A stretch of DNA of 64,000 nt from Acidobacteriota bacterium. Its GTDB lineage: Bacteria; Acidobacteriota; Terriglobia; Terriglobales; Acidobacteriaceae. Location: NCBI GenBank assembly GCA_031296115.1, contig JARLGI010000120.1, positions 1 to 64,000 on the forward strand, in the 5' to 3' direction. Within the stretch, counting starts at the first letter, position 1; every line of letters starts with the position of its first letter. Made by a program: the position numbers and the translations under genes. Below the pieces are notes generated by a model. That model did not search any database. It was given only the letters and a program-made list of their open reading frames with translations, and was not told the DNA's origin. Below, one piece after another: positions 27,374 to 38,105 of this stretch.

Positions 27374-28591
27374 CTAGGCTGTCGTCGTGCGGAGCGCACG
27401 AAGGGCGACCCCGCCCAGGACCGCAACTGCGGCGATGATGGCAACCCAGAGCACCACCGGATGGCGTTCCGACCAGGGGCGGTCATCGGGACGCCCGATG
27501 TAAGCGGTGTTGGATGTCTCCAGTCCCAGTTGCGCCGCGGTGGCAGCTTTCTCGCGCTGAAATAGCTCGGCATAGTCGTAGACCGGCGGCCCCAGTTTTT
27601 CGTCGCCGTAGTACAGCGTCAACTGGTCTCGTGCCGGCGCGTCAAAGTAAAGCCGGCGCTCCAGTTGCTGCAGGCTTGCACCCGTCAGTTTGAGCGGCGG
27701 ATCGTCGCCATTGTGGATAACGACCTTGATGGTCGTCAATCCTGTTTTCCGTCCGTGATCGGAAAAGTCCACACTCTGGTCTTCTGAATCGATCTTCTGG
27801 CCCCCGCGCACCATGTGAATGCGATTGATCTCGCCTGAACCCAACCAGGCCCCCTTGTCGTTTTGGATCTCAAGTTCGCGCCGGAAATTGGGCTGCGCCG
27901 GCTCAACCACAAACATCACCCGCTCCACTGGGACATTCTCTGCGGCAGAAAAGGTAAAGACGGTATCTTTACCCTTCTGCTCCTGTTTTGACGTGCTGCT
28001 TACCTGGCGCCACAGCGCGGGTTGCTCCTCTCTCATTTCGGAAGTTGCGCCCTGGACGTCCTCTGGCTTGACGGCACCGTCGATGGTGACACGCAGATAT
28101 TTGTAGGTGGCCCGCGGCAGTCGCAGCATGTAGTTCCGGCCCAGGTTCTCCTTGGAGAGGTCATAGAGAATGCTGTCGCCCAGCGACGCCCAATGCCACC
28201 CGTGTGGATCGTCCTGGCCCTCCACGCGGGCATGGGCGACGAAGTTCTTGGTCGCGAGCTTGAGGTCCACGTGGTCGTACTCAGCCAGATGGGACATGTC
28301 AATCAGAAACTGCGTCTTGCCTGCGACCGTGGACTGTTGCAGGACGGGCACGTCGGTGCGCTCGCGCTCCCGGCTACCCCGCTCCACCACCAGGGAGTAC
28401 GGAACCTCCATCTCCCCCGCGTAGATACGCAAGTCACCCAAGTCAGACCGGGCGTGCTTCCAGACCGATTCATCCACAACCAGATAGTGTTGGCCGGCGC
28501 CAGTGAGTTGCACCGGCCGTTGGTATTGGAAATAGGAGAGAGAAGGCCCTCCTGACAAAACAAAGGCGACCAACCAGAGAATATTCCTCAC
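27374..28591 (-). CDS. DUF3999 family protein
   Basis: Signal/TM N-terminus; FQYQRPVQLTGAGQHYLVVDESVWKHARSDLGDLRIYAGEMEVPYSL; C-terminal TM; 4-nt overlap with DUF2339 gene. Confidence 0.75.
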   Translation of the reverse strand: MRNILWLVAFVLSGGPSLSYFQYQRPVQLTGAGQHYLVVDESVWKHARSDLGDLRIYAGEMEVPYSLVVERGSRERERTDVPVLQQSTVAGKTQFLIDMSHLAEYDHVDLKLATKNFVAHARVEGQDDPHGWHWASLGDSILYDLSKENLGRNYMLRLPRATYKYLRVTIDGAVKPEDVQGATSEMREEQPALWRQVSSTSKQEQKGKDTVFTFSAAENVPVERVMFVVEPAQPNFRRELEIQNDKGAWLGSGEINRIHMVRGGQKIDSEDQSVDFSDHGRKTGLTTIKVVIHNGDDPPLKLTGASLQQLERRLYFDAPARDQLTLYYGDEKLGPPVYDYAELFQREKAATAAQLGLETSNTAYIGRPDDRPWSERHPVVLWVAIIAAVAVLGGVALRALRTTTA

Positions 28592-30459
28592 GGCGGCGTC
28601 CTCTGGGTCGAGTTGTCTTGTGCGCGGGGCGAAAGCTGCAGCCAGTCGCGATGATAGATATAGGAAATGCCCATCAGAACGGCTCCCAAAGCGATGAAGC
28701 TCAGGATACGGTAGCCCTGCTGCAGCATCGAGACGTCGTACAGAAACACTTTGCCAATCGTGAACGCAATGAGCGCCAGGGCCTGCCAGCGCGCAAAAGC
28801 CGATCGCTTCCAGAAGCCGAACGCCATCAGGCCCGCCCCATAGGCAAGCCAGATGGCGGAATAGCTGAAATTACGGGCAAACTGAATTTGCTGGAGTGGC
28901 TCGTAGTTGCCATGCGGGTGGGTCTGGTACAAGTTGGTGAGTTCACGGCCAAAATAATCCGAGGCCTCGAGGGTAAGCGCGATCAGCGCCAGCAGGTTCA
29001 GAACGACCTCCGCGAGCTGCAGCAATGGCCTCTCACCCTCGGTCACAAGGTGGTTGCCAGCAACCACGATTCCCCCGAGAATGGCGATGGCAACCAGATA
29101 AGTCGCAAAGCGAGCATTGAAGACCAGAGTTTGAACCTGAAAATTATCGTAAAGCAGCAGGCGAGCGATTCCCAGGGTCAGTGTCGCCGCCGCGAAGTAG
29201 CGCAGGAAGTCTGTTGCCGTGCGCACTGCGACAAACAGCAGCACGGCAGACTCGATCAACCAGCCAATGGTGATCCAGTGCGCGTTGAGCTTCAGCGGGA
29301 TGGCAATGGTGATGAAGGCAATCGCGATGGCTACGTGCAGCAGGCTAATCGTCCGCACTGCAGTCGGGTCACCCCCGGCGCGCCGTTTGAGCTGGCTGCC
29401 CAGCCCCAGATAGGAGGAGGCCAGGCCCAGCGCGTACCAGGTGAGGGTGCCCGTCTCGTTTTCATACATCGCAAACAGCGCCAGGAAAAGAGCGCTCGCA
29501 TTGACGAGCGGCAACAGTGTCAACGCAATGGAAAAACCGCGGTGCCATTGCGACTTGGTCAACGGAGTAAGCAGAGGGGTTGTAGCAAAGATGGCCGCAA
29601 AGACCCCGGCGAAAAAGACCGTGAGAGCCCGCTGGTCCCTGGTGTAATAGTCGCCGAACCATCCCACGTAGAGAATTGCAGTACCGAGGAAGCTGCCCAC
29701 CAGCAAACGGCGCCACGGCTTGAATACGACCATTGCCAAAATGGCCAGATTGAGCAAGCAGACATAGGAGAAGAGCACGATCTCGTGGTTCTCTCCGGTA
29801 GAAAGAAGAACCGGGGTGCTGAAGCCGCCAATCATGGCGAAGGCGGCCAGAATCTCCGCATCCTGAGTGAGCGCCAGCGTAATCGTGCAAGCCGTCACCA
29901 CGATCATGGCGGCAAATGCGACCCAACTGGGCACCAGGTGGTAGACCTGGAATGCCCCCCATAGCGAGAGGTAGAGCGTTCCAATGCCGACCGCTTTCAA
30001 GGAATAAGAAAAGGCCACATAACCCTTGCTGCGGAAACGCTCACCCCACAGGACCAGCCCGATGCCCACCAACAATCCCAGCGCGATTCTTCCGGTGGGG
30101 CCGATCCATCCGTTATCAAAGGCATACTTGATGAAGTAGGAGACCCCAATCAGAATGGCGAAAATGCCGATGCGGTTCAGCCAAAGTTTCCCAATCCTGC
30201 TTTCTAGTTGCTCGGCTTCAGGAGTCGGTTCGGTTGACGGGATCCGTAATGGGGGCCACTGTTGGCTGGGTGCATCCGATGGGAGCGGAGCCGGAGTCGG
30301 AGTCGGTGCTGTCACTCTCTCCGTGGGGGGACTTGCAACCCTGGGCTCGGGTTGCCACTGAACGTTCACGCCCGCTTGTTGCTCCAGACGATAAACGCGC
30401 GCAGTAAGGGCCGCTAAGTGGTCGCGTAGCGCCTGCAGTTCATCTTGTGGGGTGGCCAT
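28588..30459 (-). CDS. DUF2339 family polytopic membrane protein
   Basis: Coiled-coil N-term, LESRIGKLWLNRIGIFAILIGVSYFIKYAFDNGWIGPTGRIALGLLVGIGLVLWGERFR, many TM helices. Confidence 0.85.
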   Translation of the reverse strand: MATPQDELQALRDHLAALTARVYRLEQQAGVNVQWQPEPRVASPPTERVTAPTPTPAPLPSDAPSQQWPPLRIPSTEPTPEAEQLESRIGKLWLNRIGIFAILIGVSYFIKYAFDNGWIGPTGRIALGLLVGIGLVLWGERFRSKGYVAFSYSLKAVGIGTLYLSLWGAFQVYHLVPSWVAFAAMIVVTACTITLALTQDAEILAAFAMIGGFSTPVLLSTGENHEIVLFSYVCLLNLAILAMVVFKPWRRLLVGSFLGTAILYVGWFGDYYTRDQRALTVFFAGVFAAIFATTPLLTPLTKSQWHRGFSIALTLLPLVNASALFLALFAMYENETGTLTWYALGLASSYLGLGSQLKRRAGGDPTAVRTISLLHVAIAIAFITIAIPLKLNAHWITIGWLIESAVLLFVAVRTATDFLRYFAAATLTLGIARLLLYDNFQVQTLVFNARFATYLVAIAILGGIVVAGNHLVTEGERPLLQLAEVVLNLLALIALTLEASDYFGRELTNLYQTHPHGNYEPLQQIQFARNFSYSAIWLAYGAGLMAFGFWKRSAFARWQALALIAFTIGKVFLYDVSMLQQGYRILSFIALGAVLMGISYIYHRDWLQLSPRAQDNSTQRTPP

Positions 30460-30635: not shown

Positions 30636-31829
30636 CTATTCCACCCACAGCGCGGCTGAGCCGCCCACCCATTTCAGATTGCGGTTATGGTCGACGCCCA
30701 TCATCATGCCGCGGCCCATGCGCACCAGCGGAAGGACGCATGTGAGTTCGCCTCCCTCCGGCCATACGTACATCACGCGGATTTCCATCTGCGTCGCCCC
30801 GTGCGGCGTCTGGATGACCGGCTCGAAGTTCATCCGCTCTTGCAGAATGTAGTTGTGGCGCTGGTCCTGCGGGATGGCCTCGATGTCGGCCTGGGTCGGC
30901 GCGAACTTGATGCCCACTCCGGCGAATGAATACAGCGGCTTGAGCAGGTAGTTGTCGTTGTCGGCGGGAACGTGCCGATTCTCATCGACAAACCACGTCC
31001 GCGGCACGCACGGATGTTTCAGGTAGGGGATGGAGAACTTGCTGATGCGGAAGTACCAGTTGGGATGGCCGGCCCATTCAACGTCAAGCTCATCGCGCAG
31101 ATCGAACGGCAGAGTGATGCCTTTGCGCTCCAGCTCGTCAACGATACAGCGGTTGTAGACGCGGCGGACTTCGATCTCGCGCCCATCCTTGGCGTAGAAC
31201 AGTTTTGCGCCGCGCTTCTTCAGCGAAAGGATGTCCACGATGGCAATGCCGAGTTCGCGCTGCGTGACCAGGAAGTCGGGCAGGGTCTTCTGGTGCTCGG
31301 GGTCCAGTTCCATCAGGATGACGTTCTCGGGATCGTGATCGGCCACGATGAGATCGCGCATCAATTTCCAATAGGAATCGCGCGTCAGTCTCGAGAGATA
31401 GACGCCCAGATCGCGGGACAAACCGTACGACTCGATGTACTGCTGCGCGGCTAGCTGCTGATATCCGTAGAGCGATGGAAAAGCCTGCAGCTCGACCAGC
31501 TTGGGCTCCAGCTCGCCACCGGCATTGCGTACGACGCCAAAGTCCACCTGCACAAACATCGGTCGTGGCGATTCATTGGGAACGTTGTAGAGCGCGGGAA
31601 GGGAAGCGTCCGACTTGCGCAGGTACTCGGGACTGCTCACCAATTGCGACACCAGTTCGCGGCCGTACTGCGCCATCTGGTCGAGCAGAGTCTTGGGTAC
31701 GAAGCCCGGCGTCTCGGAGACGCGAAAGCCGACATGGGTGCCGCAGGCGTTATCCAGCGCCGCCAGGAATTGCTGGTATTTTTCCGGGGTATAACGGCGG
31801 TTGAATTCCTCGCGCAGCGCGGGAACCAT
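30636..31829 (-). CDS. Predicted ATP-grasp-like protein (function unknown)
   Basis: NDNYLLKPLYSFAGVGIKFAPTQADIEAIPQDQRHNYILQERMNFEP...TQMEIRVMYVW resembles ATP-grasp nucleotide-binding core; 2-nt gap to M29 gene. Confidence 0.65.
   Translation of the reverse strand: MVPALREEFNRRYTPEKYQQFLAALDNACGTHVGFRVSETPGFVPKTLLDQMAQYGRELVSQLVSSPEYLRKSDASLPALYNVPNESPRPMFVQVDFGVVRNAGGELEPKLVELQAFPSLYGYQQLAAQQYIESYGLSRDLGVYLSRLTRDSYWKLMRDLIVADHDPENVILMELDPEHQKTLPDFLVTQRELGIAIVDILSLKKRGAKLFYAKDGREIEVRRVYNRCIVDELERKGITLPFDLRDELDVEWAGHPNWYFRISKFSIPYLKHPCVPRTWFVDENRHVPADNDNYLLKPLYSFAGVGIKFAPTQADIEAIPQDQRHNYILQERMNFEPVIQTPHGATQMEIRVMYVWPEGGELTCVLPLVRMGRGMMMGVDHNRNLKWVGGSAALWVE
30644..30687. repeat. 44-bp direct repeat, copy B (within 3' end of ATP-grasp-like gene)
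   Basis: 41/44 identical to 27037-27080. Confidence 0.85.
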
Positions 31830-31831
31830 AC

Positions 31832-32869
31832 TCAGACCTCGATGAGGAAGCGGCCTTTTTCCATAATCTGCCGGCCGTCAACCCAGATGTCGAAGCGTGT
31901 TCCCACCACGTCAATGTGGGTGCTGGAATACCAGTCGGCGCCGGTGTGCGCACCGTAAGGATTGCCAAAGGCGATGTGCAGGCCGGGGAACTTCTCGTCC
32001 TGGAGGATCTGCCCGATGACCTGCTTCAACTGGAAGTTGGTGCCGATGGCAAACTCGCCCACCAGGTGGCTGTTTTCGTCGGTGTGGGTATAGTTCCAGA
32101 ACTCTTCTTCCAGTGCCTTGTTGTCGCTGGAAACCTCGGTGATGCGGTTGTTCTTCATGCGGATGGTCAGGGGCTGCCGCGCCAGGTCCTGGTACTTCTC
32201 GCACAGGTAATCGCCGACGACGCCGTCCACGACGTAGGTCCCGTTCACCTCGCCGGGCGTGGTGAACACCTCGCCGCCCGGCAGGTTGCCCCACTTGTCG
32301 GGGCTGATGATGCCGCTGGTCTTCACCCAGCGGTAGTTCGGGTTCAAGGTCGTGTTGAAGTCGCTGCCGGCCGGGTTCTTAGCGCTGATTACTTTCGCCG
32401 CGCTGACGATCTCGATGACTTGCTTGCTGAGCGCGTCCACCCGGTTGAAGTCGGCGCGCATGCCCTCCAGCATAATCTGGTGATTGATGTTGACCATGTG
32501 CGCGTGGCGCATCTTCCGCCGGTTCACGATGTCCGTCATCTGCATGCGCGACTTCAACTCATTGCGCTGGGCGTGCACGGCAAAGATGCTGACTTGGCTG
32601 GTTTCCATGTCGCTGGCGACGTCCGGCGGCAAATCGGCAAGCGGCCGAGGCGCCAGGTCTTCCAGCACAAATGCCTTGAACGGCGAGCCCACCTTCACCA
32701 ATTCGTTGGCAATGCTGGCCGCGATCTCACGGCAATCATTATCGGTGATGACCGTGACCTTCTCCGATGGCTGAATGCGGAGGCAGGTGTTCACCGCGTT
32801 GAAAGCGCCGGGAGTAAGTTCGGGGTCGAAAGAAGTCTTAGTAAGGTCGGTAAGAGCGGGAGAGATCAA
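31832..32869 (-). CDS. M29-family (aminopeptidase T-like) peptidase
   Basis: ...CLRIQPSEKVTVITDNDCREIAASIANELVK...GEVFTTPGEVNGTYVVDGVVGDY...EFAIGTNFQLKQVIGQILQDEKFPGLHIAFGNPYGAHTGADWYSSTHIDVV. Confidence 0.8.
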   Translation of the reverse strand: MISPALTDLTKTSFDPELTPGAFNAVNTCLRIQPSEKVTVITDNDCREIAASIANELVKVGSPFKAFVLEDLAPRPLADLPPDVASDMETSQVSIFAVHAQRNELKSRMQMTDIVNRRKMRHAHMVNINHQIMLEGMRADFNRVDALSKQVIEIVSAAKVISAKNPAGSDFNTTLNPNYRWVKTSGIISPDKWGNLPGGEVFTTPGEVNGTYVVDGVVGDYLCEKYQDLARQPLTIRMKNNRITEVSSDNKALEEEFWNYTHTDENSHLVGEFAIGTNFQLKQVIGQILQDEKFPGLHIAFGNPYGAHTGADWYSSTHIDVVGTRFDIWVDGRQIMEKGRFLIEV

Positions 32870-32899
32870 GAACAGTCCTTTCCAGATATTTTGACGTAT

Positions 32900-34012
32900 C
32901 TAATCGAAGACGCCCACCCGCGTCTCGGCAACCATATAGTCAACCACCTTCTTCAGGTCGCCGGTTTCCTCGAACACCTTTAACTGCCGGTCGGCGCCGG
33001 TGCCCATCTTGAGCATCTGAAGAATGTAATTGATCTCTTTGCGCGAACCAAGTTCGTCCAGGACGGGGTCGATCAGGTCGAGATACTCCTGCATTAGCGC
33101 ACGCACCGGCACTTCCTCTTCCTTGCCGAAGTCGATCAGCATTCCGTCCAGGCCGTAGCGCGCGGCGCGGAACTTGTTCTCCATGATGAGGGCGCGGCCG
33201 TAAATCCGGTAGCTCTTGTTGGAGGCGTGCAGCTTGTACAACATCGCGACCGTGGCCTGAATGAGCGCGGCGATGGCCATGGTCTCGTCGAGCCGCATGG
33301 GGATGTCGCACACCCGCACCTCCAGGGTGTTGAAGTACGGATGGGGACGAATGTCCCACCAGATCTTCTTGCCATTGTCGATGCAGCCGGTCTTGACCAG
33401 CAGATTGACGAAGGTTTCATAATCCGACCAGTTGGCGAACACGTCCGGGATGCCGGTGCGCGGAAACCGTTCGAACACCTTGCTGCGATACGACTTGAAA
33501 CCGGTCGGCATGCCCATCCAGAAGGGCGAGTTGGACGACAGCGCCAGAATATGCGGCAGGAAATAGCGCATCGAGTTCATGATGTGGATGGCAGTGTTGC
33601 GGTCCTCAATGCCGACGTGCACGTGCAGCCCAAAGACAAGATTGGCGCGCGCGATCATCTGCATCTCTTCCAGCACCTGGCGGTAACGCTCGTCGGGATA
33701 AATCTCCTGCAGCTTCCAGTCGGCGAAGGGATGGGTGCTGGCGGCGGCCAGCATCATGCCATTCTCGCTGGCCAGGTTGATCATCTGGTGGCGCAGCGAG
33801 CGGATGTCTTCCCGCGCTTCTTTGACGTTATGGCAAACCTTGGTGCCGACCTCGATGACCGCCTGGTGCATCTCGGGCTTGACCGCCTCGTGCAGCGCCA
33901 TCTTGGCCTTGGGAAGGATCTCCGCCTGAATATGCGACCGCAGATCGCGACTATCCGGGTCGATCGTTTGATATTCCTCTTCGATGCCGATGCTGAGGCT
34001 TGGCGGGTTCAT
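32900..34012 (-). CDS. GCS2/YbdK-type carboxylate-amine ligase
   Basis: MNPPSLSIGIEEEYQTIDPDSRDLRSHI...GLHVHVGIEDRNTAIHIMNSMRYFLPHILALSSNSPFWMG...DIRPHPYFNTLEVRVCDIPM. Confidence 0.93.
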   Translation of the reverse strand: MNPPSLSIGIEEEYQTIDPDSRDLRSHIQAEILPKAKMALHEAVKPEMHQAVIEVGTKVCHNVKEAREDIRSLRHQMINLASENGMMLAAASTHPFADWKLQEIYPDERYRQVLEEMQMIARANLVFGLHVHVGIEDRNTAIHIMNSMRYFLPHILALSSNSPFWMGMPTGFKSYRSKVFERFPRTGIPDVFANWSDYETFVNLLVKTGCIDNGKKIWWDIRPHPYFNTLEVRVCDIPMRLDETMAIAALIQATVAMLYKLHASNKSYRIYGRALIMENKFRAARYGLDGMLIDFGKEEEVPVRALMQEYLDLIDPVLDELGSRKEINYILQMLKMGTGADRQLKVFEETGDLKKVVDYMVAETRVGVFD

Positions 34013-34016
34013 CTGG

Positions 34017-35033
34017 TTACCTCTTGGCCGCTCGCGAAGCTGCTTTCTTGGCTGCAGCTTTTTTGGGCGCCGTCTCCTTCGCCTTGGCGGCCTCGTCATA
34101 GTATCCGCTGAGGAACGCGCTCCAGCGGTATTCCGGCGTGAGACCGGAATGCTGCTTAGCCTTGCGGACCGCCAACTCCGCGACCGCATTCACGATCCAG
34201 TCGAAGTTCTCCTGGCCGACCGAGTTTACGTCGGCGTCGGGCGCGGGATTCATGAAGTCAATGGCGTACGGGATGCCGTCTTCGCAGGCAAACTCCACAG
34301 TGTTCAGGTCGTACCCCAGCGCGCGGCACAAGGTGAGCGAGTCGCGTTCCACCCGCTCCAACAGCTTGGGATCCACCGGCGGCGGGTTCTTCACGTAGCG
34401 CTCATGGAAGGGCGCGGAGGGATGGTAGTGCATGATGTGCACTTTCTCCTGCCCAACCACGTAACAGCGGAAATACTCCTTGAACTTCACACCGCGCTGC
34501 AGCGTCATGCACAAGTCGCGGCTCTGGTCGTAGGCGTGGTAGAGCTCCTCCGGGGAGTTCACCTTGTAGACGTCCTTCCAGCCGCCGCCGTCGAAGGGCT
34601 TCAGAAAGGCCGGAAACCCGACGTAGCTGAAAATGCTGTCCCACGGCATGGGATATTGCAGGTTGCGCATGGAGCGGTCGGTGGTGCCCGGCGGATGCTG
34701 CTTGTGCGGCAGCAGCACCGTCTCAGGGATGGCGACCCCCAGTTTGTGCCCGAGTGCGAAGTTGAAGAACTTGTCGTCGGCACTCCACCAGAATGGGTTG
34801 TTGATGACGATCGCGCCCGATAGCGCCGCATTCTTCAAATAGGCACGATAGAAGGGGATGTCGTGCGAGATGCGGTCGACGATGACGTTGTAGGGAGACG
34901 GTTCCGCCATGCGGACCTCGCCCACCGTCGCCAGTTCGGCCTGGATCCGGGCCTCGCCCATGGAGTTGATCTTCTCCACCAAGGCGGGTGGAAAGGTTGT
35001 CTCCATCCCGAAAATGATTCCGATCTTCTTCAC
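34017..35033 (-). CDS. ATP-grasp ligase (RimK/GshB-like superfamily) with basic Lys/Ala-rich C-terminal tail
   Basis: GFPAFLKPFDGGGWKDVYKVNSPEEL; LNTVEFACEDGIPYAIDFMNPAPDADV; tail AKAKETAPKKAAAKKAASRAAKR. Confidence 0.85.
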   Translation of the reverse strand: MKKIGIIFGMETTFPPALVEKINSMGEARIQAELATVGEVRMAEPSPYNVIVDRISHDIPFYRAYLKNAALSGAIVINNPFWWSADDKFFNFALGHKLGVAIPETVLLPHKQHPPGTTDRSMRNLQYPMPWDSIFSYVGFPAFLKPFDGGGWKDVYKVNSPEELYHAYDQSRDLCMTLQRGVKFKEYFRCYVVGQEKVHIMHYHPSAPFHERYVKNPPPVDPKLLERVERDSLTLCRALGYDLNTVEFACEDGIPYAIDFMNPAPDADVNSVGQENFDWIVNAVAELAVRKAKQHSGLTPEYRWSAFLSGYYDEAAKAKETAPKKAAAKKAASRAAKR

Positions 35034-35248
35034 GAATACTCCTCCGGAAGCGAACGCGAGTCTGGCCTTCGCCCGATTGCCATTACTGTTGGAAATCCCA
35101 AGAAGAAGGGCTGGGAGCGCCTCAATGAACCAATCTTTATTTTAAGCGAAAAAATCGGGATTTGTAAGTTGAAGCCGGGCCCCTTCAAAGCGTGATATGC
35201 CGGGTGATCTGCGGCTGTGATGCGGAACACACTGTCTCGGGCCTTGCT

Positions 35249-35290
35249 CCCACCCTTTCGCCAAAGGCGGGTGAAAGGTTGGGGTACCCC
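35249..35290. repeat. Intergenic imperfect palindrome
   Basis: CCCACCCTTTCGCC-AAAG-GCGGGTGAAAGGTTGGGGTACCCC. Confidence 0.65.
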
Positions 35291-35302
35291 GCCGGGTCAG
35301 AT

Positions 35303-36007
35303 TTACTCCAGGTACGCCCGTGCCATGGGCCGCCACCACGGCCAGTCGTGGTAGCTGTGGTCGCCCCACACGTAAAGCTCGTGCCGAATGCCGCGCGCCC
35401 GCAGGATGGAAGCGAACCACTCGTTCTTCTCCCAGCACATGTCCCACTCCCCGGTGGCGAGCACGGTGCGGATGTGGTTGTACTTCCAGCCGTCGGTGCA
35501 GCTGGCCAGATAATCGGGCGGGTTGTTGAAGTACACGTCCTCGCTATACCAGCCGTTGACGAAGCTCTTGATGTCGAACGACCCGCCCATGGCGACGCAG
35601 CCAGTGACCTGGTCGGGATGACGGAAGGCAAAATTGACCGCGTGATAAGCGCCGAAGCTGCAACCGGTGACAATGGTGCGCGGTGTCCAGTTCTTGTTCC
35701 ACATCAGCGGCAGCACGTCGTTGAGGATGTAGTTCTCGTACTGAATGTGGTGTTGCACGCGCCAGTAGGGATGCGCCCGCTTGTTATACCAGCTCTCGCT
35801 GTCCACGCCATCGACGCAATAAATCTGCAGCTGCCCGGCGTCAATGCGGTCGGCGACCGCGGCAATCATCTTGTTGTCTTCGTACTCGAAGTATTTGCCC
35901 ATCGAGGTAGGGAAGACCAGAACCTTCGTGCCAGCGTGGCCGAAGACAAGCAATTCCATGTCGCGTTGCAGGTCTTTCGACCACCAACGGTGATATTCAC
36001 GATTCAC
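35303..36007 (-). CDS. Esterase family alpha/beta hydrolase
   Basis: VNREYHRWWSKDLQRDMELLVFGHAGTKVLVFPTSMGKYFEYED...TGCSFGAYHAVNFAFRHPD nucleophile elbow; GTG start at 36007. Confidence 0.82.
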   Translation of the reverse strand: MNREYHRWWSKDLQRDMELLVFGHAGTKVLVFPTSMGKYFEYEDNKMIAAVADRIDAGQLQIYCVDGVDSESWYNKRAHPYWRVQHHIQYENYILNDVLPLMWNKNWTPRTIVTGCSFGAYHAVNFAFRHPDQVTGCVAMGGSFDIKSFVNGWYSEDVYFNNPPDYLASCTDGWKYNHIRTVLATGEWDMCWEKNEWFASILRARGIRHELYVWGDHSYHDWPWWRPMARAYLE

Positions 36008-36085
36008 GTTGTTTGAGCCTCTTCCGTGAGAGATAGTGTTGGAACGAACCGCATTTGGTAATCTAGGGAACCACAATTCTACAGA

Positions 36086-36916
36086 ATGAGCACGAATCCG
36101 ATCATAACCGACCGGCCTGTGGGGCCGGAGCAGATGCACGGTGCCCTGAACTCGCGTCTTCGCAAGCACGAGCAGTTCGCCTCCACGCTGCTGGACGAGA
36201 AGCATGATTTCATCGTCTATATGCCACCGATGTACGACGCCGAACAAGACCGGCGCTATCCCGTGTTGTACATGCAAGACGGGCAAAACCTCTTCGATCC
36301 CGAGACCTCGTTCATCCACGGCAAGTACTGGCGCATGGGCGAGACCGCCGATGAGCTGATCCTGAGCGCGCAGATCGAGCCGCTTATCATCGTGGGCGTC
36401 TACAACACTAGCAGCCATCGCATCAATGAATACACGCCGGTACAGGACAAGCGGCTTGGAGGCGGCCAGGCCGATGCCTACGGCCAGATGCTGGTGGAAG
36501 AGCTGAAGCCGTTCGTCGAGCACACTTACCGCACCTTGCCGGGAGCGGACAACTGCGGTATGGGCGGCTCGTCGCTGGGCGGGCTGGTGACCATGTACCT
36601 GGGCCTGCGCTACACGTGGGTCTTCAGCAAGCTATGCGCGATGTCGCCTTCGGTATGGTGGCGCGGTCGCGCCTTGCTTGAGACGGTTGCCCAGATTCAG
36701 CGCAAGCCGGATTTGCGCATCTGGCTCGACGTCGGGATCAAGGAGGGCCAGCGGGCTTTGCCGGATGCGCGAGCGCTAAAGACAGCGCTGGTCGGCAAAG
36801 GCTGGGAGGTTGATCGCGACCTGGCATACAGCGAAATCCCGGATGGTGAACACAATGAGGTCGCGTGGGCGCAGCGCGTCGCGCCTATGCTGAAGTTCTT
36901 GTACCCGCCCCGCTAG
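36086..36916 (+). CDS. Putative esterase (Fes/enterochelin esterase-like alpha/beta hydrolase)
   Basis: HDFIVYMPPMYDAEQDRRYPVLYMQDGQNLFDPETSF...NCGMGGSSLGGLVTMYLGLRY. Confidence 0.9.
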   Translation: MSTNPIITDRPVGPEQMHGALNSRLRKHEQFASTLLDEKHDFIVYMPPMYDAEQDRRYPVLYMQDGQNLFDPETSFIHGKYWRMGETADELILSAQIEPLIIVGVYNTSSHRINEYTPVQDKRLGGGQADAYGQMLVEELKPFVEHTYRTLPGADNCGMGGSSLGGLVTMYLGLRYTWVFSKLCAMSPSVWWRGRALLETVAQIQRKPDLRIWLDVGIKEGQRALPDARALKTALVGKGWEVDRDLAYSEIPDGEHNEVAWAQRVAPMLKFLYPPR

Positions 36917-37010: not shown

Positions 37011-38105
37011 ATGTCTATTGCCACACCGATTCTCGATTCCTCCATCAGGGCGCGATTGCAGGGTCTCGAGCGCCTGATCGGCAACACGCCGCTGCTGGCC
37101 ATCGAGTACGAAATGCAAGGCCGCCAGCGCACCATTTACGCGAAGAGCGAGCAGATGAATTTCACCGGCAGCATCAAGGACCGGATGGCTCTGCACATCT
37201 TGCGTAAGGCATACGCCGCCGGACTGATTCACCCAGGCGACACGATTGTAGAAGCGACCAGCGGCAACACCGGCATTTCGTTTGCCGCCGTGGGCCGCGC
37301 GCTTGGGCACCCCGTCACCATCTTCATGCCCAATTGGATGAGCCGGGAACGCATGGACCTCATCCACAGCCTGGGCGCCAACATCGTGCCGGTAACCAGG
37401 GCGCAGGGTGGCTTCCTTGGCAGCATTCGTATGGCGGAGGAGATGGCAGCGCAGCGCGATGATGTGTTTCTGCCGCGTCAGTTCTCGAACTCGGCCAACG
37501 TGGAAGCCCACGAGCAGACAACTGGCCCGGAACTGTACTGGCAACTCCGCTACGAAGGTCTGACCGCCGACGCCTTCGTTGCTGGCGTCGGCACGGGCGG
37601 AACGGTGATGGGCGTTGGACGGTTTCTCAAGGCGGCCCATTCCACGACTCGCATCTATCCCATGGAGCCGGCCGAGTCGCCCACGCTCTCCACTGGATGC
37701 AAGGTCGGGCAACACCGGATTCAAGGAATCTCGGACGAGTTCGTGCCGGAAATCCTGCATTTGACCGAAATTGAGCCGCCGGTGGACGTCTGTGATGGCG
37801 ATTCCATCCTGATGGCGCAGAAACTGGCAGGCGAGCTCGGGCTGGCGGTTGGAATCAGTTCGGGAGCGAATTTCCTGGCGGCGGTGAAGGTGCAGGGCAG
37901 CCTGGGAGATGACGCGGTGGTGGCCACCGTCTTCGCCGACGATAATAGGAAATATCTCAGCACCGATCTGTTGCGCGACGAGCCTGTGAAGTCGCACTAT
38001 CTCTCCGCTGGTATCAACCTGGTTGGGTTACGTGCGCTGAGCCGGGTGTGCAAGGCGTGTACCGCAGTGCGGGATGGAGCTCAGCTGGGCGAAGAAGTGA
38101 CATGA
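37011..38105 (+). CDS. Cysteine synthase family PLP enzyme with C-terminal extension
   Basis: [50 protein letters not shown]. Confidence 0.92.

Follow-up and report, generated by a model that had tools for sequence, protein, structure and literature searches.

A conserved three-ligase gene set in Acidobacteriota, a candidate pathway for stepwise peptide or amide synthesis

What three ligases of different kinds might build together with three hydrolases is the question raised by a compact locus (30636-36916) in the genome of an Acidobacteriota bacterium of the family Acidobacteriaceae (assembly GCA_031296115.1; 3.75 Mb in 125 contigs). The window analysed comprises positions 1-64,000 of contig JARLGI010000120.1. 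The six genes of the locus form a set that is conserved in order and inherited together across the phylum; we consider it probable that they encode a pathway, probably cytoplasmic and independent of nonribosomal peptide synthetases (NRPSs), that assembles a short peptide or amide metabolite stepwise, one ATP-dependent bond at a time. All six open reading frames (ORFs) proposed in an initial annotation of the window were recovered. The features are as follows (lengths in amino acids, aa, or nucleotides, nt).

36007-35303, minus strand: EstA, PF00756 serine hydrolase, 234 aa counted from the ATG at 36007.
35033-34017, minus strand: AGrasp1, predicted canonical ATP-grasp ligase, 338 aa, GTG start.
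34012-32900, minus strand: GCS2, putative YbdK-family carboxylate-amine ligase with a glutamine-synthetase fold, 370 aa.
32869-31832, minus strand: M29, putative M29-family metallopeptidase (PF02073), 345 aa, TTG start.
31829-30636, minus strand: AGrasp2, permuted ATP-grasp ligase by predicted structure, without a Pfam family, 397 aa.
36086-36916, plus strand: EstB, PF00756 esterase, 276 aa, divergent from EstA.
36008-36085, no strand: EstA/EstB intergenic region, 78 nt, putative shared promoter region.

The five minus-strand genes follow one another in the order EstA, AGrasp1, GCS2, M29, AGrasp2 with successive gaps of 269, 4, 30 and 2 nt. The gene set, folds, conserved active-site residues, gene order and co-inheritance were computed here. 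GTDB species genomes were scanned with AGrasp2; at least 595 stretches matched, of which 589 proved to be relatives. The best 80 of the 589 were fetched, all of which lie in records titled Acidobacteriota or subgroups thereof. Gene order was counted in 51 AGrasp2 loci with at least 7.5 kb of upstream DNA. Same-strand upstream partners were M29 (45 loci), GCS2 (45), AGrasp1 (42) and EstA (38). The full set EstA-AGrasp1-GCS2-M29-AGrasp2 was present in 38 of the 51 loci and its order was identical in 38 of 38. Outside the window's class the genes were still clustered, at 40-57% identity, with EstA often inverted and M29 often missing. The gene set of the initial annotation, tested for conservation beyond close relatives, is thus kept across several Acidobacteriota classes.

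Co-inheritance was assessed in 80 Acidobacteriota genomes, 49 with AGrasp2 (the total found among 396 genomes of the phylum) and 31 without; the tests treat related genomes as independent and their P values are indicative only. AGrasp1 was detected in 46/49 AGrasp2-positive versus 5/31 negative genomes, GCS2 (at least 53% identity) in 45/49 versus 1/31 and M29 (at least 50% identity) in 28/49 versus 0/31. In the family of the window genome, GCS2 and M29 were each found in 21/21 genomes with AGrasp2 and 0/20 without, and an EstB homologue (at least 45% identity) in 18/21 and 0/20, respectively; in genus g4 alone the figures for GCS2 and M29 were 12/12 and 0/8. In Terriglobia, EstB belongs to the set as its sixth member. 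Co-inheritance still holds in G094, G155, G233 and G329, where AGrasp2 lies 0.4-0.9 Mb from the remaining set genes, and is therefore not a by-product of linkage. From the recurring order and orientation and the phyletic co-occurrence, the arrangement is not due to chance.

Each of the three ligases has an architecture of its own: canonical ATP-grasp, glutamine-synthetase fold and permuted ATP-grasp of the glutathione synthetase (GSS)/YgiC type. For AGrasp2, no sequence match was found in Pfam, NCBIfam or the PDB. Its AlphaFold2 model (predicted local distance difference test, pLDDT, 90.6; predicted template-modelling score, pTM, 0.90) was compared with the PDB using Foldseek. The best match was glutathione synthetase 8fbz (E=1.1e-14), followed among others by glutathione synthetase 1m0w, GspS-like 3n6x, YgiC 7uk8, YjfC 7uk6 and fungal Cp1B; the glutathione synthetases matched come from human, yeast and plants. 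The top 25 matches were all of the glutathione synthetase/GspS/YgiC type (E 1e-8 to 1e-14), whereas conventional ATP-grasps matched at E>=0.0027 only. The initial annotation's ATP-grasp-like call for 30636-31829 was therefore correct, and the model specifies it further: AGrasp2 is predicted to be a permuted ATP-grasp of the eukaryotic glutathione synthetase/GspS/YgiC-YjfC structural type.

AGrasp2 shares this predicted fold with YgiC/YjfC, GspS and eukaryotic-type glutathione synthetase at Foldseek E values of 1e-11 to 1e-14 and template-modelling (TM) scores of 0.5-0.64, but with only ~15% identity in the structural alignments. Residues D96, E113, Q115, K264, K297-P298 and Q330 are invariant. 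A KP-x-(Y/F)-S-x-x-G segment is common to AGrasp2 and YgiC, KPLYSFAG standing in register with KPIFSREG in a profile comparison that was non-significant overall. The C-terminal motif RxGRGxxMGVDHN is AGrasp2's own and sets it apart from YgiC, GspS and glutathione synthetase, and at 397 aa the protein has no amidase domain. Lone matches of 23-25 residues to the AGrasp2 C-terminus were observed at G592:C3:19076-19144 and G629:C22:64883-64957 and are possibly remnants after gene loss.

GCS2 was matched over its full length by NCBIfam NF010039 (E=7.5e-162, 538 bits against a cut-off of 371) and also by TIGR02050 (320 bits, cut-off 176), Pfam PF04107 (E=1e-67) and the YbdK structure 1r8g (E=9e-56). 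The GhExE signature corresponds to G9-E11-E13 and is invariant; GIEEE is constant save for one I10V. By family model and signature, GCS2, the single gene of its kind in the window genome, belongs to the YbdK/GCS2 carboxylate-amine ligase family, like Escherichia coli YbdK in its whole-length family match and GhExE signature. The comparison with YbdK covered the protein itself; the GCS2 described here is co-inherited with two ATP-grasp ligases, and this argues against a YbdK-type enzyme working alone.

A GCS2 together with an AGrasp2 raises the question of glutathione or a homoglutathione-like thiol, with GCS2 supplying gamma-glutamylcysteine and AGrasp2 acting as a eukaryotic-type glutathione synthetase. 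GCS2 belongs to the gamma-glutamylcysteine ligase family, glutathione synthetase is the best structural match of AGrasp2, classical GshB was not found in the window genome, and a cysteine synthase-like gene (37011-38105) adjoins EstB. This last gene was considered as a further set member and dropped, as no copy was detected next to the set in other loci. The window genome, however, has the bacillithiol synthase BshC, as do 48/49 AGrasp2-positive genomes and 20/20 AGrasp2-negative family members, so that the thiol niche is filled with or without AGrasp2. The GST_N domain was absent from all 47 genomes tested, control genomes being positive, and glutathione would require neither a third ligase nor a peptidase and esterases. 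Thiol synthesis of this kind is very improbable, and replacement of glutathione by the set is unlikely.

The AGrasp1 model (pLDDT 85.7) gave 552 PDB matches at E<=0.001 in Foldseek, led by Ddl, LysX/ArgX and RimK (D-Ala-D-Ala ligase 3r23, E=1.8e-14; LysX/ArgX 5k2m; RimK 5zk6). The ATP/Mg-binding residues K145-P146, GGGW (G149-W152), E247 and D259-x-x-N262 are invariant in 32 sequences. All Pfam and NCBIfam family matches were sub-threshold: TIGR00768 scored 21 bits against a cut-off of 143, and the Ddl-type models were likewise far below theirs, leaving AGrasp1 below the RimK/Ddl subfamily cut-offs. AGrasp1 is accordingly assigned, on its modelled Ddl/RimK/LysX fold, to the ATP-grasp superfamily only. 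A relation to CDC123/R2K, suggested by a weak Pfam match, was rejected; the match was below the cut-off and the structure groups AGrasp1 with Ddl/RimK. The C-terminus (window 34017-34110) is a basic Lys/Ala-rich tail, KAKETAPKKAAAKKAASRAAKR, modelled with low confidence; comparable basic tails of different sequence occur in several homologues.

The folds of AGrasp1 and AGrasp2 also bear on a modification of macromolecules or polyamines, in which a protein or a polyamine would be the acceptor. One or more of the ligases would load it with amino acids, peptides or polyamines, as RimK does with ribosomal protein S6 and as GspS and YgiC do with polyamines, and the hydrolases would reverse the reaction. 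The AGrasp1 fold resembles those of the protein modifiers RimK and LysX, but small-molecule ligases (Ddl) were matched at equal or better scores; the structural neighbours of AGrasp2 include the peptide-spermidine ligases YgiC/YjfC and GspS. The basic AGrasp1 tail would also suit this function, as would a neighbourhood seen in several genomes of the window's family, where EstA, or EstA with AGrasp1, adjoins rpsP-rimM-trmD-rplS. On the other side, the window does not have this neighbourhood, which is limited to one family, and the loci yielded no conserved gene for a small carrier protein or a tag. With RimK close in structure to AGrasp1 and YgiC to AGrasp2, protein or polyamine modification has to be taken seriously as a rival reading, though we regard it as unlikely. 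The ribosomal genes, named from sequence, were observed divergent from EstA(-AGrasp1) in Terriglobales L134, L135, L139, L152, L154 and L155; this placement is probably positional only, though notable given the RimK-like fold of AGrasp1.

Among the hydrolases, M29 was matched by PF02073 (E=1.2e-14, 54 bits against a cut-off of 27). Residues E200, E272, H298, H318 and D320 are invariant in 17 sequences; we take them to be the ligands of the two-metal site, assigned by spacing from AmpS/AmpT. By model and residues, M29 belongs to the M29 metallopeptidase family, with intact metal ligands. A 2,5-dihydroxypyridine dioxygenase that shares the fold is its nearest solved chain, which leaves peptidase activity uncertain. 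EstA was matched by PF00756 (E=6e-6); S117 (in GxSxG) and H220 are invariant and D189 is nearly so. Its start at the ATG at 36007 agrees with the family N-terminus, and the gene lies directly upstream of AGrasp1 in most relatives. EstB was also matched by PF00756 (E=2.4e-29). The head-to-head arrangement of EstA and EstB is kept in relatives; a promoter scan of the 78 nt between them gave matches at chance level only. At G191:C11:138479-138565, a 29-residue EstA fragment with a stop adjoins an intact EstB, consistent with decay of EstA at its ancestral place.

Hydrolases make up three of the six genes, and the low-scoring NCBIfam matches of EstB include enterochelin and feruloyl esterases, which would be in keeping with a catabolic or salvage cluster: imported peptides or esters would be degraded, and the ligases would salvage amino acids or render a compound harmless by conjugating it. 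The most deeply conserved core, however, consists of the three ligases and not of the hydrolases, and the set has no conserved transporter or regulator. Such a role is highly improbable.

Members of the EstA family also occur beside other ATP-grasps. An EstA homologue (35-39% identity) adjoins a 388-aa ATP-grasp gene in Peptoclostridium, Sinorhizobium and Pararhizobium replicons. This ATP-grasp belongs to another family (PF13535) and resembles AGrasp1 in short segments only; no GCS2, M29 or AGrasp2 was found near these pairs. Outside Acidobacteriota this pairing was the one part of the arrangement observed, no genome-wide search of other phyla having been made. On the Peptoclostridium plasmid (L123) the pair is flanked by two genes for 3-deoxy-D-arabino-heptulosonate 7-phosphate (DAHP) synthase, and a DAHP synthase-like gene comes after AGrasp2 in congeneric sister species (L003:11240-12292, L005 and L006, with a remnant in L004). 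DAHP synthase was considered as a possible partner and taken as a coincidence, as it was not found in any other locus. A viral or mobile origin of the set was also rejected: there was no PHROG match, no plasmid match for AGrasp1 or AGrasp2 and no AGrasp1 relative in viral contigs.

Beyond lineage synteny, no further gene family common to loci across classes was found, and no transporter or regulator is conserved. In 38 Terriglobia loci (e.g. L064:13829-16735) a Ser/Thr protein kinase gene and a gene for a ~970-aa protein resembling PIG-L/LmbE-type deacetylases lie downstream of AGrasp2, which looks like lineage synteny. Downstream of AGrasp2 in the window, on the same strand, are genes for DUF2339 and DUF3999 membrane proteins (27374-30459); this pair was not detected in other loci.

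ATP-grasp genes may also point to graspetides or other ribosomally synthesized and post-translationally modified peptides (RiPPs). The initial annotation had noted the absence of an NRPS and of a precursor peptide, and this is borne out. Between EstA and AGrasp1 lies the only candidate small ORF, of 66 aa; no other locus was found to hold a homologue, and in many relatives the gap narrows to 15-60 nt; around the ligases there is no space for a precursor because the gaps are 2-4 nt. A graspetide-type precursor was not found at the locus, an unlinked one not having been searched for, and a graspetide/RiPP cluster was dropped, there being no conserved precursor ORF.

The initial annotation had proposed a peptide/amide-ligase pathway. 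The part of this proposal that stands directly is that the three ligases, the peptidase and the two esterases belong together as one conserved unit; that they share a single pathway, with an order of steps and a small soluble product, we infer. Since the set is kept and lost together, a small peptide-like product is the most likely one. With no conserved transporter, regulator or precursor, and no obvious hydrophobic signal stretch at the N-termini of the set proteins on inspection by eye, a stepwise and probably cytoplasmic small-peptide or amide pathway is the simplest reading. GCS2 would convert a carboxylate into an acyl-phosphate and then couple it to an amine; family precedent points to the gamma-carboxyl of glutamate. 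AGrasp1 would form a further amide bond in the manner of Ddl or RimK. AGrasp2 would place the last amine or amino acid on the C-terminal carboxylate of the peptide, as glutathione synthetase does with glycine or YgiC with spermidine. M29, EstA and EstB may trim, deprotect or recycle intermediates or the product.

Several observations weigh against a single pathway of this kind. The link of AGrasp2 to YgiC/YjfC/GspS is by predicted structure only, the profile comparison giving 6% probability. In the sister species L002-L007 the sequenced flank contains neither EstA nor EstB. M29 is missing in 21 of the 49 AGrasp2 genomes, outside Terriglobia and a few other lineages, and is therefore dispensable. 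Presence of the set within the window's family is nested, from EstA alone (G179, G225, G305 and G313) through EstA and AGrasp1 without other set genes (G049, G112, G147 and G217) to all five; these two genes may thus have a function apart from the others.

Iyer et al. are said to have predicted amidoligase gene neighbourhoods in 2009. The present analysis resembles published amidoligase/GCS2 neighbourhood analyses in being a comparative-genomic prediction of peptide synthesis from ligase and peptidase neighbours, and the exact gene set may already be listed in an earlier amidoligase survey. In the pupylation-related analysis of GCS2, the neighbourhoods of related ligases have amidotransferase or cyclotransferase partners (PMC2588565), from which the partners found here differ. 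Discrete ligases without an NRPS have a precedent in the fungal E-64 pathway, in which Cp1B, a GSS/YgiC-like ATP-grasp sharing the predicted fold of AGrasp2, is partnered by another free-standing amide-forming enzyme (PMC12568646). Unlike that fungal pathway, the set is bacterial and phylum-wide; it lacks an oxygenase and an enzyme of the amide-bond-synthetase type, and has GCS2, a canonical ATP-grasp, M29 and two esterases.

A more specific reading of the stepwise pathway can be offered tentatively: the product may be a small gamma-glutamyl-type peptide or conjugate with a general role, as a cofactor or as a stress or storage compound, beside bacillithiol, with AGrasp2 founding a new ATP-grasp family. 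The set would then add a family to the glutathione-synthetase-type ATP-grasps. Acidobacteriota are dominant in many soils, yet little of their small-molecule metabolism has been mapped; a co-inherited three-ligase set with neither NRPS nor precursor would escape searches for ordinary biosynthetic clusters. Cultured strains of Granulicella and Edaphobacter carry the set, which is contiguous in Granulicella aggregans M8UP14 (L074), so that its product should be findable.

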